Shown in pieces: positions 17,950-23,570 of a DNA stretch of 64,000 nucleotides. Every line of letters begins with the position of its first letter. Positions within the stretch are counted from its first letter, which is position 1. The stretch is from Elusimicrobia bacterium GWA2_61_42. Its GTDB lineage: Bacteria; Elusimicrobiota; Elusimicrobia; Elusimicrobiales; UBA9959. The position numbers were made by a program, and so were the translations under genes. The stretch is from contig MGTU01000004.1 in the NCBI GenBank assembly GCA_001799615.1, positions 62,001 to 126,000 of the forward strand. Direction: 5' to 3'. Under the pieces are notes generated by a model that was not told the origin of the DNA, ran no database searches, and saw only the letters and a list, made by a program, of their open reading frames with translations.

Positions 17950-17955
17950 TTAAAA

Positions 17956-19218
17956 ATGAAGAAATTCATTTTTCCGCTCCTCGGCCTGCTCCTGGCCCCG
18001 GCGCCGGCCCGCGCGGCCGCCCCGTGCGGCGGCCTTGAAAAAGCGGCGGCGCAGCTCTCCGAACGCGTCGCCGAGCGCCCGCGCGGGCTCGAGCAGCTCT
18101 TCGACAAAAGCCTGTTCGCCCATATCTCCGCCGAAAAGCTGGGCGCGTACCTGGCCGGCCAGTATAAGGCCAACGGTCCCGTGGTTTCCACCGTTCTGGT
18201 CAGTTCCGATAACGCCTGCTCCGGCCATTTTCTGCTGGAGACCGGGCGCGGCTACCGGCTGCCCGCCGCCATATCGCTTAACCCGGTGACCGGGCGCATA
18301 AGCGGGCTGTTCTTCGGGACGGCTTACAAGAAGGACCTGACGCTGGACGCGGCGGTCCGGCAGTTGAAGGCTTTGCCCGGCAAAACGGGCCTGCTGGCTA
18401 TGCGCCTGGGCGAAAAGCCGGAGGCGGTAGCGGCGCTCAATGAAAGCGAACAGTTCGCGGCCGCCTCCGCCTTCAAGCTTTACGTGCTGGGCGCGCTGCT
18501 GGAGAATAAAGTTCCCTGGGATAAAGTCCTCCGCCTGCGCTCGGAGGACAGGTCCCTGCCTACGGGGCGCCTGCAGGACTGGCCGGAAGGCTCGCCGTTT
18601 ACGGTCCACACGCTGGCCGCCCTGATGATCTCCGAAAGCGATAATACCGCGGCGGACACGCTTATCTCGGCGCTGGGCCGCCGCAACATCGAGGCCGCGC
18701 TGCCGGCGCTGGGGCATTCCAACCCCTCCCTGCTGCGGCCTTTCCTGCGGACCTCGGAGCTGTTCCGGCTGAAGGCCGACAGTGAAAAAGCCCTGAAGTA
18801 CATGAACCTGCCGGCCGAAGAAAAATACAATTTCCTGGAAGGCCTGGGCCAGGCCCCGCTGTCGGCGGCGGCCCTCAGGCTCAGCCCTTTCGGCATAGAA
18901 AGGCTGGAGTGGCTGATCTCGCCGGCCGACCTGTGCCGGGTGATGAAATATATCGCGGACAAGGACGACAAGGCGGCGCTGGACATACTGGCTATGAACC
19001 CCGGCCTCCGGCTGCCTCCCGGCGCTTTCCTCTACGCCGGGTATAAGGGCGGAGGCGGGCCCGGGGTCCTTTCCATGACCTGGCTGCTCAAAGACCTGAA
19101 CTCCCACTGGTACTGCCTGTCGGCCGTCTGGAACGACGAGCGGGAAAAACTGGACGAGGCTAAATTCTACGCCGTCATGAACGGCGCCCTGGCCGGGCTG
19201 GGGAGCCGCGGGGAATAA
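17956..19218 (+). CDS. Secreted serine hydrolase with class A beta-lactamase fold
   Basis: The start is ATG 17956 because the signal peptide (KKFIFPLLGLLLAP...ARA) begins there; upstream in-frame sequence overlaps the scpB-like gene on the other strand. The 420-aa product has the catalytic motifs in order: SAFK (S171, K174), SDN (228-230) and YKGG (K364). The S-to-SDN distance fits class A enzymes. An extra N-terminal domain of about 120 residues precedes the catalytic domain. It could be a beta-lactamase, a DD-peptidase-like enzyme or an esterase; the 136-residue gap between SDN and KGG is longer than in class A enzymes, so penicillinase activity is uncertain. Confidence 0.78.
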   Translation: MKKFIFPLLGLLLAPAPARAAAPCGGLEKAAAQLSERVAERPRGLEQLFDKSLFAHISAEKLGAYLAGQYKANGPVVSTVLVSSDNACSGHFLLETGRGYRLPAAISLNPVTGRISGLFFGTAYKKDLTLDAAVRQLKALPGKTGLLAMRLGEKPEAVAALNESEQFAAASAFKLYVLGALLENKVPWDKVLRLRSEDRSLPTGRLQDWPEGSPFTVHTLAALMISESDNTAADTLISALGRRNIEAALPALGHSNPSLLRPFLRTSELFRLKADSEKALKYMNLPAEEKYNFLEGLGQAPLSAAALRLSPFGIERLEWLISPADLCRVMKYIADKDDKAALDILAMNPGLRLPPGAFLYAGYKGGGGPGVLSMTWLLKDLNSHWYCLSAVWNDEREKLDEAKFYAVMNGALAGLGSRGE

Positions 19219-19281: not shown

Positions 19282-20385
19282 TCAGAGCGGCGCGGCCGGC
19301 GGGGGCAGGAACTCGCCGTAATTCTGCTTCGTTATCGTAAAGGCCTTGGGGCCCAGCACGCCTTTGCGGCCCAGGTAGCCGGGCACCATCGGCGGGGTGG
19401 TCGCGTAAAAGTTGTAGATGAGGTGCGGGATGGTCCACATGCGTACCCGCTTGTTTTCCGGCAGGCCGTGGTTTATCATCATGACCAGGTTGTTGGTGCA
19501 GTTGTTGCGGGTGGAGTGATACCATTCGCCTTCCCGGTTAAGCGTGGCCAGGGCCACGGTGTCGCGGGTCATCTTTTCCTTCAGCGCTTTGTCGGTCAGC
19601 AGCGGGTAGAAGTTCATCCACTCCTTGCCGAAGGCCGTGCTGTCCAGCGCGTAGTCCTCGAAGTTGGTCAGCAGCCAGATGATGTTGTAGGTTTTCTTGA
19701 AGCCGGCCAGCAGCGAATAGTCCTGGCCTTCGCGGGCGTAAGCCTCCACCGACAGGAAAAAACCTTTCGACTTCCTGCCGGCCGCGTCCGTGAACCCGCC
19801 GTCCTCGAACTCGTAGAACAGCAGGGAGTGGCCGGCGATGCCCGGCGGCTGCACCTTGGTCACGAAATAGATCTCCTTGACCAGCTCCGGGCGGATGGCG
19901 GCGGAAACCCAGGTAAAATCATGCGCGGCCGCGGTCGGCTCCAGCCAGCGCAGGTTGTCCACCCGCAGCGCGCCGGCCTGCTCGCCCAGGAACAGCGCGG
20001 GCCTGAATTTATCTTTATGGGGCGGGGGTTCGGCCGCGGCGGGGTCGGGGACATACTCCTGGATGCTGTGCACCCTGAGCGTGTCCACGTCGTCGGAAGC
20101 TTCGGCCCGGCCCCAGATCTCCACGGTGCGGTCGTCGAATTCGGCCGCCTGCTCTTTTGAAAGCTCGAGTATGAAGACGCGCCCGTCCCCGGTATTCAGC
20201 ACGGTCCTGTCCGGGTGCACGGTGACCAGGCCGCGCAGGAAATAGGTAACGGCGTGCTTGTCGGCCGGCGCGGCCGCGGCCGGCAGCGGCAGGGGAGAGG
20301 CGTAGAGGCTGGTGAAGTCGTCGGCCCTGGCGGCGCCGGCCAGCGCCAGGCAGAGCAGCGGGAAAACAAGAGGTTTCGCGTTCAT
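19282..20385 (-). CDS. Secreted DUF4105/Lnb-N-like protein
   Basis: The 367-aa product has a signal peptide (about 1-21). The C-terminal half resembles the DUF4105 (Lnb N-terminal periplasmic) domain: GFFLSVEAYAREGQDYS, a membrane-proximal YNIIWLLTNFEDY, and STRNNCTNNL, where the Cys of NNC is the expected catalytic residue and the nearby His in EWYHSTRNN a partner. Lnb proteins are lipoprotein N-acyl transferases. The long membrane part of full Lnb is missing, so this is at most a soluble relative. The N-terminal 120 residues look like an OB-type beta domain (RGLVTVH..VEIWGRAE). Confidence 0.55.
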   Translation of the reverse strand: MNAKPLVFPLLCLALAGAARADDFTSLYASPLPLPAAAAPADKHAVTYFLRGLVTVHPDRTVLNTGDGRVFILELSKEQAAEFDDRTVEIWGRAEASDDVDTLRVHSIQEYVPDPAAAEPPPHKDKFRPALFLGEQAGALRVDNLRWLEPTAAAHDFTWVSAAIRPELVKEIYFVTKVQPPGIAGHSLLFYEFEDGGFTDAAGRKSKGFFLSVEAYAREGQDYSLLAGFKKTYNIIWLLTNFEDYALDSTAFGKEWMNFYPLLTDKALKEKMTRDTVALATLNREGEWYHSTRNNCTNNLVMMINHGLPENKRVRMWTIPHLIYNFYATTPPMVPGYLGRKGVLGPKAFTITKQNYGEFLPPPAAPL

Positions 20386-20503: not shown

Positions 20504-20509
20504 TATAAT
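20504..20509 (+). promoter_or_regulatory. TATAAT box 9 nt before the phosphotransferase-RapZ gene
   Basis: TATAAT is followed by AAAAAAGCC and ATG 20519 with no SD, which fits leaderless transcription. Confidence 0.45.
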
Positions 20510-20518
20510 AAAAAAGCC

Positions 20519-21976
20519 ATGCCGCTTAAAAACAAGGAAAAAGAAGCCGCCCTGAAGCCCCAGCCTGAAGCCCCGCTGCGGTCGCTTTACAAGAAGACTT
20601 TCGGCCGCGAGCCGGAGGCTTTCGAGCCGCTGAAGGCCGACGGCTCGGCGCGCCAGCTTTACCGCCTGAGGGGCGAAAGCCGCTCCGTTATAGGCGCCTT
20701 CGGGCCGGACAAACTGGAGAACCGGGCTTTCCTGGAGTTCTCGCGGCATTTCCGCGCCGAGAAACTGCCGGTGCCCGAGATCTACGCCGAAGACCAGCCC
20801 CAGGGCATTTACCTGGAAGAGGACCTGGGCAGCACCACCCTGTTCGAATTCCTCGGCGCCGGGCGCAAAGGCGCCGAGCTGCCCGCCCCGGCCCTGGCCG
20901 CTTATAAAAAAACGCTGGACTGGCTGCCGCGCTTCCAGGCGCAGGTGGGCCGCGGCCTGGACCTGAAGTTCTGCTACCCGCGGGCCGGTTTCGACCGCCA
21001 GTCCATAATGTGGGACCTGAATTATTTCAAATATTATTTCCTGAAACTGGCCAAGATCCCTTTTAACGAACAGAAACTGGAGGACGATTTCGTCCGCTTC
21101 ACCGATTTCCTGCTGGAGGCTTCCGCCGACTATTTCCTCTACCGCGATTTCCAGTCGCGCAATATCATGCTGCGCGGCGGGGAACCCTGGTTCATCGATT
21201 ACCAGGGCGGCCGCCGCGGGGCCCCTCACTACGACCTGGCCTCGCTGCTCTACGACGCCAAGGCGGACCTTTCGCCCGAAACCCGCTCCGAGCTCAGGAA
21301 GCATTACCTGGCGGCCTCCGGGCTGGACCAGAAAACTTTCATGCGGCATTACCACGCCTTCGTCTACATCCGCATCATGCAGGCCATGGGCGCCTACGGC
21401 CTGCGCGGCTTTTACGAGCGGAAAACCCACTTCCTCAACAGCGTGCCCTACGCGGTGCGCAACATCGAGTGGCTGCTGCGCAACACCGAACTGGAGGTGA
21501 AGCTGCCGGAACTGACGGCGGCCTTCAAGCGCATCGCCGCCTCTTCCTACCTGCGCCAGTTCGGCGAGACCAAGCTGGGGCTGACCGTGCGCGTGAGCAG
21601 CTTCTCCTTCAAGAACGGGCTGCCGCTCGACGAGAAAGGGCACGGCGGCGGCTTCGTGTTCGACTGCCGGGCCCTGCCGAACCCCGGCCGCTACGAGGCT
21701 TACGCGCAGCTTACCGGCAGGGACAAGCCCGTTATCGATTTCTTGAAAAAAGAACCGGAGGTCGGCAAATTCCTGGACGGCGTCTTCGCCCTGACCGACC
21801 AGAGCGTGGAGAATTACCTGTCGCGCAATTTCACCTCGCTGATGGTCAACTTCGGCTGCACCGGCGGGCGGCACCGCTCCGTGTACTGCGCCGAGGCCCT
21901 GGCCGCGCGCGTGAAGCAGAAATACGGCGCCCGGGTAGAGCTGGCCCACCGGGAGATAGGGGACGCGCCAAAGTGA
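20519..21976 (+). CDS. Aminoglycoside-phosphotransferase-like sugar kinase fused to RapZ C-terminal domain
   Basis: The 485-aa protein has two domains. Residues about 20-340 form a COG3178-type phosphotransferase (AmgK family) with the catalytic loop YRDFQSRN (D210, N215) and the metal-binding FIDYQGG (D227). Residues about 355-482 match the RapZ C-terminal domain: RVSSFSFKNGLP, FDCRALPNPGR, TGRDKPV and FGCTGGRHRSV (445-455). AmgK phosphorylates N-acetylmuramic acid or N-acetylglucosamine at C1 in wall recycling, and the RapZ C-domain senses glucosamine-6-phosphate in E. coli. The next gene, MurU-like, overlaps by 4 bp (GTGA), which supports a kinase-uridylyltransferase pair. Confidence 0.85.
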   Translation: MPLKNKEKEAALKPQPEAPLRSLYKKTFGREPEAFEPLKADGSARQLYRLRGESRSVIGAFGPDKLENRAFLEFSRHFRAEKLPVPEIYAEDQPQGIYLEEDLGSTTLFEFLGAGRKGAELPAPALAAYKKTLDWLPRFQAQVGRGLDLKFCYPRAGFDRQSIMWDLNYFKYYFLKLAKIPFNEQKLEDDFVRFTDFLLEASADYFLYRDFQSRNIMLRGGEPWFIDYQGGRRGAPHYDLASLLYDAKADLSPETRSELRKHYLAASGLDQKTFMRHYHAFVYIRIMQAMGAYGLRGFYERKTHFLNSVPYAVRNIEWLLRNTELEVKLPELTAAFKRIAASSYLRQFGETKLGLTVRVSSFSFKNGLPLDEKGHGGGFVFDCRALPNPGRYEAYAQLTGRDKPVIDFLKKEPEVGKFLDGVFALTDQSVENYLSRNFTSLMVNFGCTGGRHRSVYCAEALAARVKQKYGARVELAHREIGDAPK

Positions 21977-22686
21977 AGGCGATGGTGTTCGCCGCAGGGC
22001 TCGGCACGCGGCTGCGCCCGCTTACCGACGGCGCCCCGAAGGCGCTGCTGGACGTGAACGGCGCGCCCATGCTGGAGCTGGTGATAAGGCGGCTGGCGGC
22101 CGCCGGCGTTACGGAACTGGCGGTGAATACCCACCACTTCCATGAAAAGATAGCGGCGTTCCTGCGGAGTAAAAATAATTTCGGTCTGAAGCTGGAGCTT
22201 TCGCGCGAGGAAGAATTCCCTCTGGAGACCGGCGGCGGGCTTATGCGGGCGGCGGCCTTTTTTAACGACGGCAAACCTTTTTTCGCGTACAACGCGGACG
22301 TTTATTCGGAAATGGATTTGGGCGCGCTGTACGCGCGCCACCTGGCCGGCGGCGCGCTGGCCACGCTGGCCGTGCGAAACCGGGCGTCCCGGCGGCGCCT
22401 GCTGTTCGACGCCGGGATGGCCCTGAAGGGCCGGGAAGGGGAAGTGGAAGGCGCCGGCCTGAAGCCTTTCGCCTTCAGCGGCATCCAGGTGGTCTCTCCG
22501 GAGATCTTCGCCAGGATCAGCGAGACCGGGGTGTTCTCCATAACCGGCGTCTACCTGCGCCTGGCGGCCGCGGGAGAAAAAATAGCGGGCTTTGAGGATA
22601 AGTCCCCGTTCTGGTGCGACATCGGCGACCTGGAGCGGCTGGAAGCCGTCCGCCGCCGGGCGGCCGCGGCGGCGGAAGGGAAATAA
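21973..22686 (+). CDS. murU: Nucleotidyltransferase, MurU-like (N-acetylmuramate-1-phosphate uridylyltransferase)
   Basis: The chosen start is GTG 21973, overlapping the upstream stop as GTGA; it gives the N-terminus KAMVFAAGLGTRLRPLT that aligns with MurU and other sugar-phosphate nucleotidyltransferases. The 237-aa product has the G-x-G-T-R-L-R-P NTP loop, a K in GAPKALL, and metal-site YNADVYSE. MurU makes UDP-MurNAc from MurNAc-1-P, bypassing de novo synthesis. Coupling to the kinase gene favours that role. Mannose-1-phosphate guanylyltransferase activity is the main alternative. Confidence 0.75.
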   Translation: MKAMVFAAGLGTRLRPLTDGAPKALLDVNGAPMLELVIRRLAAAGVTELAVNTHHFHEKIAAFLRSKNNFGLKLELSREEEFPLETGGGLMRAAAFFNDGKPFFAYNADVYSEMDLGALYARHLAGGALATLAVRNRASRRRLLFDAGMALKGREGEVEGAGLKPFAFSGIQVVSPEIFARISETGVFSITGVYLRLAAAGEKIAGFEDKSPFWCDIGDLERLEAVRRRAAAAAEGK

Positions 22687-22690
22687 TACT

Positions 22691-23107
22691 ATGAAACTTA
22701 AAGAACTTATGCGGGTGCTCATAACCGAGGAGATGCGGGACGTCTCGGTCTATAAGGAGGAAGCGGCGGTCTTTGGCGCCGCCTCCGGCCCCGGTGAAAA
22801 GATCAGGGAAGTGTTCCTGCGCGTGTCCGAGGAGAAAAAAAAGCGCCTGAAACTGCTGGGGCGCATGTCCAAGGAAGGCACCGGCTTCCGCCAGCGTAAA
22901 ACCGAGACGGCCCGGTCCATCGAGGCCTCGCTGCGCCTGCATGAGACCTGCGCCGACAGGACCATCCGGCTTTACAGGGACCTGCACAAGCTCATCAATA
23001 ACCCCGAGTCCAAAGCGGAAGTGATCGCCGTTATCTCCGGCGAGCGCGCCGTCCTGGCCGAGATCAAAGCTTTGCGCCTCCTGGTGGAAAAAGCCAAGAA
23101 GGCCTAG
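22691..23107 (+). CDS. Small helical protein, possibly ferritin-like
   Basis: ATG 22691 lies 4 bp after the stop of the upstream gene. The 138-aa product is predicted all-helical, with many Lys, Glu and Arg (LITEEMRDVSVYKEEA, REVFLRVSEEKKKRLKLL, ASLRLHETCADRTIRLYRDL). The heptad-like four-helix pattern recalls ferritin-like or rubrerythrin domains, but I cannot identify the paired ExxH iron ligands. The function is unknown; its location suggests co-transcription with the wall-sugar genes. Confidence 0.6.
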   Translation: MKLKELMRVLITEEMRDVSVYKEEAAVFGAASGPGEKIREVFLRVSEEKKKRLKLLGRMSKEGTGFRQRKTETARSIEASLRLHETCADRTIRLYRDLHKLINNPESKAEVIAVISGERAVLAEIKALRLLVEKAKKA

Positions 23108-23111
23108 GCGC

Positions 23112-23570
23112 ATGATCGTTTCCGACCTGGAGCGCGCAAGCCGGCGGATCCCGCCGGGGCCCGGCGTCGAAAAAGCGCTGGAGTTCCTGGGCCGCCCCGG
23201 CCTGCGGGATTTGCCGGACGGCAGGTATGAGATAGACGGCGAGCGGGTGTTTGCCCTGGTCCAGCGCTATGAAACCGCGCCGGCGGGCGAGCCGGAATTC
23301 GAGGCGCACCGCAAATATATCGACCTGCAGTTCCTCGCCGCCGGGACCGAGGTGATAGGCTGGGCGCCTCTTTCCCGCCTGGCCGTTACCAGGCCTTATG
23401 ACGCTCAAAAAGATGTTTGTTTCGGCCTGGTAACCGCTGAAGAGCGGACCGCGGTTTTGCTTAAGGCCGGGCAGCTGGCCGTGCTTTATCCCGAAGACGC
23501 CCACGCGCCAAAACTGGCCGCCGGGGCTCCGTCCCAAGTCACTAAAATAGTAATTAAGATCTCCGTTTAG
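23112..23570 (+). CDS. YhcH/YjgK/YiaL (DUF386, NanQ-like) family protein
   Basis: The 152-aa protein shows the cupin-like family pattern: ALVQRYETAP, then FEAHRKYIDLQFLAAGTEVIG, YDAQKDV and YPEDAHAPKLA. The His residues in AHRKYID and EDAHAPK are the expected metal ligands. E. coli YhcH (NanQ) promotes anomerisation of sialic acid; relatives act on other amino sugars. Its place after AmgK-like and MurU-like genes fits a sugar anomerase for MurNAc or GlcNAc, which is inference. The last 17 bp overlap the convergent methylase gene. Confidence 0.8.
   Translation: MIVSDLERASRRIPPGPGVEKALEFLGRPGLRDLPDGRYEIDGERVFALVQRYETAPAGEPEFEAHRKYIDLQFLAAGTEVIGWAPLSRLAVTRPYDAQKDVCFGLVTAEERTAVLLKAGQLAVLYPEDAHAPKLAAGAPSQVTKIVIKISV

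Follow-up and report, generated by a model that had tools for sequence, protein, structure and literature searches.

We analysed a 64,000-nucleotide stretch of DNA (hereafter the window) from Elusimicrobia bacterium GWA2_61_42, in which an AmgK-like kinase is fused to the C-terminal domain of RapZ (RapZ_C) and is followed by a MurU-like nucleotidyltransferase. The fusion gene occupies positions 20519 to 21976 of the plus strand as a single open reading frame (ORF) of 485 amino acids, both halves of which are recognized by Pfam, i.e., an APH/AmgK-like kinase domain at residues 37-267 (20627 to 21319, plus strand; PF01636, E 1.8e-12), carrying the catalytic-loop-like YRDFQSRN and FIDYQG, and a RapZ_C domain at residues 356-480 (21584 to 21958, plus strand; PF22740, E 2.9e-35). 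A fusion of this kind had been claimed in an earlier note made from the sequence alone, and these matches bear it out. The AlphaFold2 model of the protein had a pLDDT of 90.2 and a pTM of 0.84. The MurU-like gene (21973 to 22686, plus strand; 237 amino acids) starts with a GTG that lies within the last bases of the kinase gene, the GTGA at 21973-21976 forming a 4-bp overlap. A perfect -10 hexamer, TATAAT, was read from the letters at 20504 to 20509 (plus strand), so near the fusion ATG, i.e., a few bases 5' of it, that the mRNA of the window fusion is predicted from the letters to be probably nearly leaderless. A similar spacing of the hexamer was seen at nine of the 20 listed starts (that of the window and those of relatives L003, L004, L011, L012 and L014-L017).

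AmgK was the sole named kinase model listed by NCBIfam for the fusion. It was named twice for the kinase part, at 60.5 of 500 and 54.6 of 550 bits, which is far under the equivalog cut-offs; two bare Bacteroidota kinases, i.e., kinases with no RapZ_C, were also under the AmgK equivalog cut-off (114.2 and 106.7 of 550 bits). The best fold match of the kinase part was 3csv. The fusion kinase has an APH fold with catalytic-loop-like Asp and Asn and metal Asp residues (D210, N215, D227), amongst which we take D210 and N215 to be the catalytic Asp and Asn; R209, D210, N215 and D227 were invariant in 73 of 73 fusions. For the second gene, the MurU model NF045761 scored highest, with 143.8 bits against a cut-off of 250 and 81.7 bits for the first non-MurU model. 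Its best structural matches were likewise solved MurU structures, 4y7t (E 4.2e-31) and 8hhd (E 3.1e-30), with 111.5 bits as compared with 64.1 bits for the next. A LicA/LicC-like choline activation role was considered and set aside, as the LicA structure ranked no higher than 32 in the fold list and no such model led the Pfam or NCBIfam results.

The window fusion is neither a chance event nor an assembly join, since 80 loci share it and it recurs within genus and family. These loci were retained from a scan of relatives, with one genome per species, that found at least 539 relatives among 588 candidate stretches. The closest relatives among the matches listed were Elusimicrobia metagenome-assembled genomes (MAGs), at 90% identity. 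More distant relatives with the fusion include Sunxiuqinia indica (L079) and Prolixibacteraceae JC049 (L066). By record title, the 80 loci carry approximately nine phylum labels, i.e., Elusimicrobia, Methylomirabilota/NC10, Bacteroidetes, Calditrichota, Neomarinimicrobiota, KSB1, Ignavibacteria, one Deferribacteres and one Verrucomicrobia MAG.

The earlier note had proposed a survey of gene neighbours in relatives, and this survey supported the pairing with MurU. By tblastn, MurU was found on the same strand and within 400 bp of the fusion in 72 of the 80 loci, with one more at 3.2 kb; the median gap across the 73 loci with a MurU match was 23 bp. The tblastn counts were used because clustering of neighbouring genes undercounts MurU, the gene picker having sometimes taken an ORF on the opposite strand. 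Seven loci had no MurU match, and in four of these the DNA stops no more than 350 bp from the fusion match. When six genomes with no MurU beside the fusion were tested, a MurU-like gene was found elsewhere in G035, G048, G161, G165 and G182 (127-145 bits), and G050 gave only 64.7 bits.

Downstream of MurU in the window, as had been described correctly before, lie a small helical protein of 138 amino acids (22691 to 23107, plus strand) and a YhcH/NanQ-like DUF386 protein (23112 to 23570, plus strand; PF04074, E 1.1e-39; TIGR00022). No family was matched when the former, scanned as 22682-23107, was compared with Pfam and NCBIfam. The latter is a plain member of the YhcH/NanQ anomerases and a possible anomerase, yet is under the N-acetylneuraminate anomerase cut-off of NCBIfam (90.3 vs. 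160 bits). YhcH was found near 17 and the small protein near 11 of the 80 loci, all of them close kin of the window, which places both genes outside the conserved unit. The four genes had been presented as one cluster; MurU holds its place within the unit, and the idea of four genes acting as a single functional unit was rejected on these counts. Kinase, RapZ_C and MurU thus form an old, widespread unit, with the small protein and YhcH as additions particular to Elusimicrobia. Just upstream of the fusion are a beta-lactamase-family (PF13354) protein (17950-19218, plus strand) and an Lnb_N protein (19282-20385, minus strand).

RapZ_C also occurs as a gene of its own. In three Bacteroidota genomes, i.e., G160, G179 and G243, it stands between kinase and MurU as a separate ORF (L139:4012-4428, L143:3988-4389 and L148:2977-3423, the last on the minus strand; PF22740, E 2e-28 to 2e-34). 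These ORFs span 134-149 codons between stops, have their own ATG and an intact phosphate loop, and the kinase ends at a stop codon. A tree of 73 kinase domains separated the RapZ_C-bearing and split kinases from 25 bare Bacteroidota kinases on a branch with 100/100 support; the bare kinases all carry HRD[FY]H[SC]RN, while those on the RapZ_C side mostly carry YRDFQ[SA]RN. Because the split forms are nested at two places within the fusion clade, they look like two secondary fissions. Their survival as separate genes in the same row suggests that RapZ_C is able to work untethered, be it an enzyme or a subunit. MurU follows 25 of 26 bare Bacteroidota kinases, the exception (L128) reaching the end of its contig. 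One of the 26, at L112 in genome G157, is a fusion-like kinase with no RapZ_C, adjoined by MurU; the tree groups it with the fusions, at the end of a long branch, and this genome had no AnmK or MurQ matches.

A model of the RapZ_C domain closely matched the C-terminal domain (CTD) of E. coli RapZ (5o5s; Z 19.8, root-mean-square deviation 1.7, 123 residues aligned), the next fold matches being phosphofructokinases, which were weak (Z of approximately 6). A C-x5-R-S/T loop is the signature of cysteine-dependent phosphatases. Such a loop is present in the fusion as C447-T-G-G-R-H-R453-S454 (21857 to 21880, plus strand), and C447, T448, G449, G450, H452, R453 and S454 were invariant in 73 of 73 fusions, with position 451 varying. 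The same C-x5-R-S loop was found in all 22 RapZ rows compared (E. coli and 21 from Elusimicrobiota), one of which has Ser for Thr (C-S-G-G).

The remainder of the pocket differs from that of RapZ. At the position of E. coli His190, all 73 fusions have Gly, as compared with Asn (16), Tyr (4), His (1) and Gln (1) in the RapZ rows; the residue that follows is Arg (67), Lys (5) or Gln (1) in the fusions and Tyr or Trp in RapZ. The RNA-contact residue Arg238 of E. coli RapZ is replaced by Phe in every fusion, and the fusions have an extra G-x-G-G-G stretch. Owing to these differences, the ligand specificity of E. coli RapZ is not transferable to the fusion. The fusion also lacks the N-terminal P-loop domain of RapZ, and in the window's genome PF03668, which represents that domain, was found only at C4:174961-175407, outside the fusion. 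A true RapZ of this genome lies there, on the same contig as the window (G000:C4, approximately 174961-175788; L082), and its gene row resembles hpf - hprK - rapZ - EIIA, with names assigned by eye from the translations. Amongst the 51 fusion genomes, i.e., that of the window (G000) and 50 genomes of the 80 loci, the fusion was the only RapZ_C protein found in 27, and another was present in 24. Genome G009 exceeded the usual pair of fusion and RapZ by one, with three RapZ_C matches.

We then compared the distribution of the fusion with those of the enzymes that make and consume MurNAc-6-phosphate, where MurNAc is N-acetylmuramic acid. AnmK was present in 40 of the 51 fusion genomes and MurQ, counted at E <1e-50 and including one gene split between contigs, in 37; both were found in 32, AnmK alone in eight, MurQ alone in five and neither in six. 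The window's genome has both, on contigs C10 and C27, its MurQ being a full-length match with 301.3 bits against a cut-off of 302. Thirteen of 99 Elusimicrobiota genomes sampled carry the fusion, each of them together with AnmK, MurQ and a further RapZ_C match; in the other 86, AnmK was found in 32 and MurQ in 33. In a small-genome family of Elusimicrobiota that has no fusion, the AnmK and MurQ genes are adjacent (e.g., G126:C2:82842-84786), and in the window's genome they lie on different contigs.

Amongst 118 Bacteroidota genomes, 14 had a kinase with RapZ_C, either fused or split, 26 had a bare kinase and 78 had neither. AnmK was found in 10 of the 14, in none of the 26 and in 70 of the 78, and the corresponding figures for MurQ were six, none and 77. 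Hence, in this sample, bare kinases were confined to genomes with no AnmK and MurQ matches. Fisher tests for the association with AnmK gave p values of 1.2e-6 in Bacteroidota and 1.2e-5 in Elusimicrobiota; these ignore relatedness and are not relied upon.

Together with the position of MurU directly 3' of the fusion in 72 of the 80 loci, the presence of AnmK and MurQ in the window's genome makes a MurNAc recycling route, which the earlier note had suggested, the best reading of this locus, and we consider it highly probable, from the sequence evidence, that kinase and MurU act in MurNAc salvage. The kinase domain would phosphorylate free MurNAc, and perhaps also N-acetylglucosamine (GlcNAc), at the anomeric carbon, and MurU would convert the resulting MurNAc-1-phosphate to UDP-MurNAc. 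To our knowledge, AmgK is not known to use MurNAc-6-phosphate. This is the product of AnmK, and in Pseudomonas its phosphate is stripped by MupP, according to sections of PMC5371407. MurNAc-6-phosphate accumulates in E. coli K-12 deleted for murQ (PMC5371407). The fusion, or kinase with RapZ_C, was found together with AnmK but without MurQ in 13 genomes (G008, G009, G018, G036, G037, G039, G044, G046, G153, G160, G165, G235 and G243), in which something else must therefore use MurNAc-6-phosphate. Searches with a model of MupP, a HAD protein, covered 64 genomes, i.e., the 51 fusion genomes plus 13 others drawn from the 14 Bacteroidota with kinase and RapZ_C. With this insensitive model, none of the 64 exceeded the cut-off and 35 had no match at E 1e-15, amongst them eight of the 13 MurQ-less genomes (G009, G036, G037, G039, G046, G160, G165 and G243) and the genome of the window. 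E. coli Gph scored 108.9 bits with the same model, about the same as the best match in a fusion genome (114.8 bits).

Given the invariant loop, the AnmK pattern, the genomes with AnmK but no MurQ, the lack of any MupP match over the cut-off and the split genes, we favour an enzymatic role for RapZ_C. It would be a cysteine-dependent sugar-6-phosphate phosphatase that acts just upstream in the pathway, on the MurNAc-6-phosphate made by AnmK, and passes free MurNAc to the kinase, thereby filling the role of MupP in Pseudomonas. Where MurQ is also present, as in the window's genome, MurNAc-6-phosphate would be a fork between MurQ breakdown and direct reuse. That RapZ_C is the missing MurNAc-6-phosphate phosphatase is a tentative proposal, which we place slightly below an even chance, and in which activity, substrate and the order of the steps are all putative. 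The idea of a phosphatase loop in RapZ is already published; what is new here is to apply it to the kinase fusion. In parts of their article, Khan and Gorke (2020) describe a resemblance between the RapZ pocket and the loop found in cysteine-dependent tyrosine phosphatases, and suggest that RapZ might hydrolyse glucosamine-6-phosphate (GlcN6P; PMC7199280). Islam and others report, in excerpts of PMC9841335, that RapZ C247A and C247S are inactive and that a CTD crystal with GlcN6P had density in the pocket of a likely chemically transformed product. We would go somewhat further, and with more doubt, in supposing that RapZ_C is fundamentally a cysteine-dependent amino-sugar-6-phosphate phosphatase, that in the kinase fusion it takes the place of MupP in Bacteroidota, Calditrichota, Neomarinimicrobiota, Elusimicrobiota and others, and that GlcN6P sensing in E. 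coli is a later use. The fusion would then be a phosphatase-kinase moving MurNAc-6-phosphate to MurNAc-1-phosphate.

Several observations weigh against a phosphatase. AnmK was absent from 11 of the 51 fusion genomes and from four of the 14 Bacteroidota genomes with kinase and RapZ_C, many of which are MAGs that may be incomplete, and MurQ, present in 37 of the 51, would compete with a MurNAc-6-phosphate phosphatase. The Bacteroidota contrast in AnmK amounts to approximately one independent event, as it mostly compares two kinase clades. The MupP search was weak, given that Caulobacter was also under the cut-off. No cysteine-phosphatase fold appeared among the listed fold matches of RapZ_C, an absence from the list that does not amount to exclusion. 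In addition, the tested RapZ C247 variants also lost RNA binding (PMC9841335, in part), and for that reason are no proof of catalysis, and in E. coli the RapZ-CTD is a sensor with tight binding of GlcN6P (KD 10 nM), in the account given in part of PMC7073468. Finally, a sensor, too, would be of use only in cells that produce such sugar phosphates.

The closest competitor is an allosteric sensor, along the lines of the earlier note, in which GlcN6P, GlcNAc-6-phosphate or MurNAc-6-phosphate bound in the phosphate loop would switch the MurNAc kinase on or off and so balance direct reuse against MurQ breakdown and new synthesis. We regard this as possible, though on the doubtful side. E. coli RapZ binds GlcN6P specifically (KD 186 nM for the whole protein; sections of PMC7073468), the phosphate loop is conserved in the fusions, and such a switch would be useful in the 32 of 51 fusion genomes that have both AnmK and MurQ. 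Against this, all 73 fusions have Gly at the His190 position and 72 have Arg or Lys directly after it, an invariant Cys is not obviously needed for mere binding, and the separation of RapZ_C, which took about two fissions and is seen in three genomes, is harder, albeit not impossible, to reconcile with a domain acting in cis. Judged on sequence and distribution, the invariant loop, the separate RapZ_C genes and the AnmK-following pattern in Bacteroidota accord with an enzymatic role no less well than with sensing. The interpretation in the earlier note is accordingly supported in part, with the salvage route as the best reading and control of the kinase as one of two main contenders.

It is improbable that kinase and nucleotidyltransferase instead activate GlcNAc or another sugar for surface glycans rather than for peptidoglycan. 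Both proteins are well under their equivalog cut-offs, the second gene next matches other sugar-1-phosphate nucleotidyltransferases, and 11 of the 51 fusion genomes are without AnmK; however, MurU is clearly the best family and structure for that gene, and the tie to AnmK is strong. The earlier note had named capsule synthesis as a pathway to which neighbours in relatives might point, and no recurring capsule or glycan genes were recognized, by eye, in the neighbour clusters. That RapZ_C serves mainly for oligomerization or as an RNA-binding scaffold, the kinase moonlighting as an RNA regulator, is most improbable: the E. coli RapZ-CTD dimerizes and binds small RNA (excerpts of PMC9841335 and PMC5737377), but Arg238 is Phe in every fusion, the start of the 190-197 loop differs and, on the partial account of Khan 2020 (PMC7073468), the RNA-binding part is restricted to Enterobacteriaceae.

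The system resembles the AmgK-MurU pathway of Pseudomonas and Caulobacter in that an AmgK-like kinase adjoins MurU and AnmK is usually encoded in the genome. It differs in that the fusion kinase forms its own clade, has RapZ_C attached and occurs in genomes with no MupP match over the cut-off. The pattern of the MupP-type pathway, i.e., AnmK and MupP present and MurQ absent, is not that of the window's genome. MurQ is absent from Pseudomonas, according to the same sections of PMC5371407, and a plain replacement of MurQ as in that genus was rejected for the window's genome and for the 37 of 51 genomes in which MurQ is present. The combination of AmgK/MurU with MurK/MurQ in Tannerella forsythia, which places direct reuse and breakdown in one cell as in the window's genome, is another parallel, although no AnmK is predicted there, unlike in the window's genome (PMC7670621, in part); Tannerella AmgK has been used in E. 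coli together with its MurU (PMC13041923, in part). In the open-licence literature we found no paper joining AmgK with RapZ, RapZ with MurU, or Elusimicrobia with peptidoglycan recycling, which is a weak absence.

RapZ_C is small and soluble, with natural stand-alone versions of approximately 130 amino acids, and either reading is therefore amenable to a simple assay. Should RapZ_C be a sensor, amino-sugar phosphate levels would be tied directly to the salvage kinase. Should it be a phosphatase, chemistry would account for Cys247 of E. coli RapZ, which is as yet unexplained, and direct MurNAc reuse, which in other bacteria bypasses the target of fosfomycin (sections of PMC5371407), would be completed in several phyla that have no recognized MupP.

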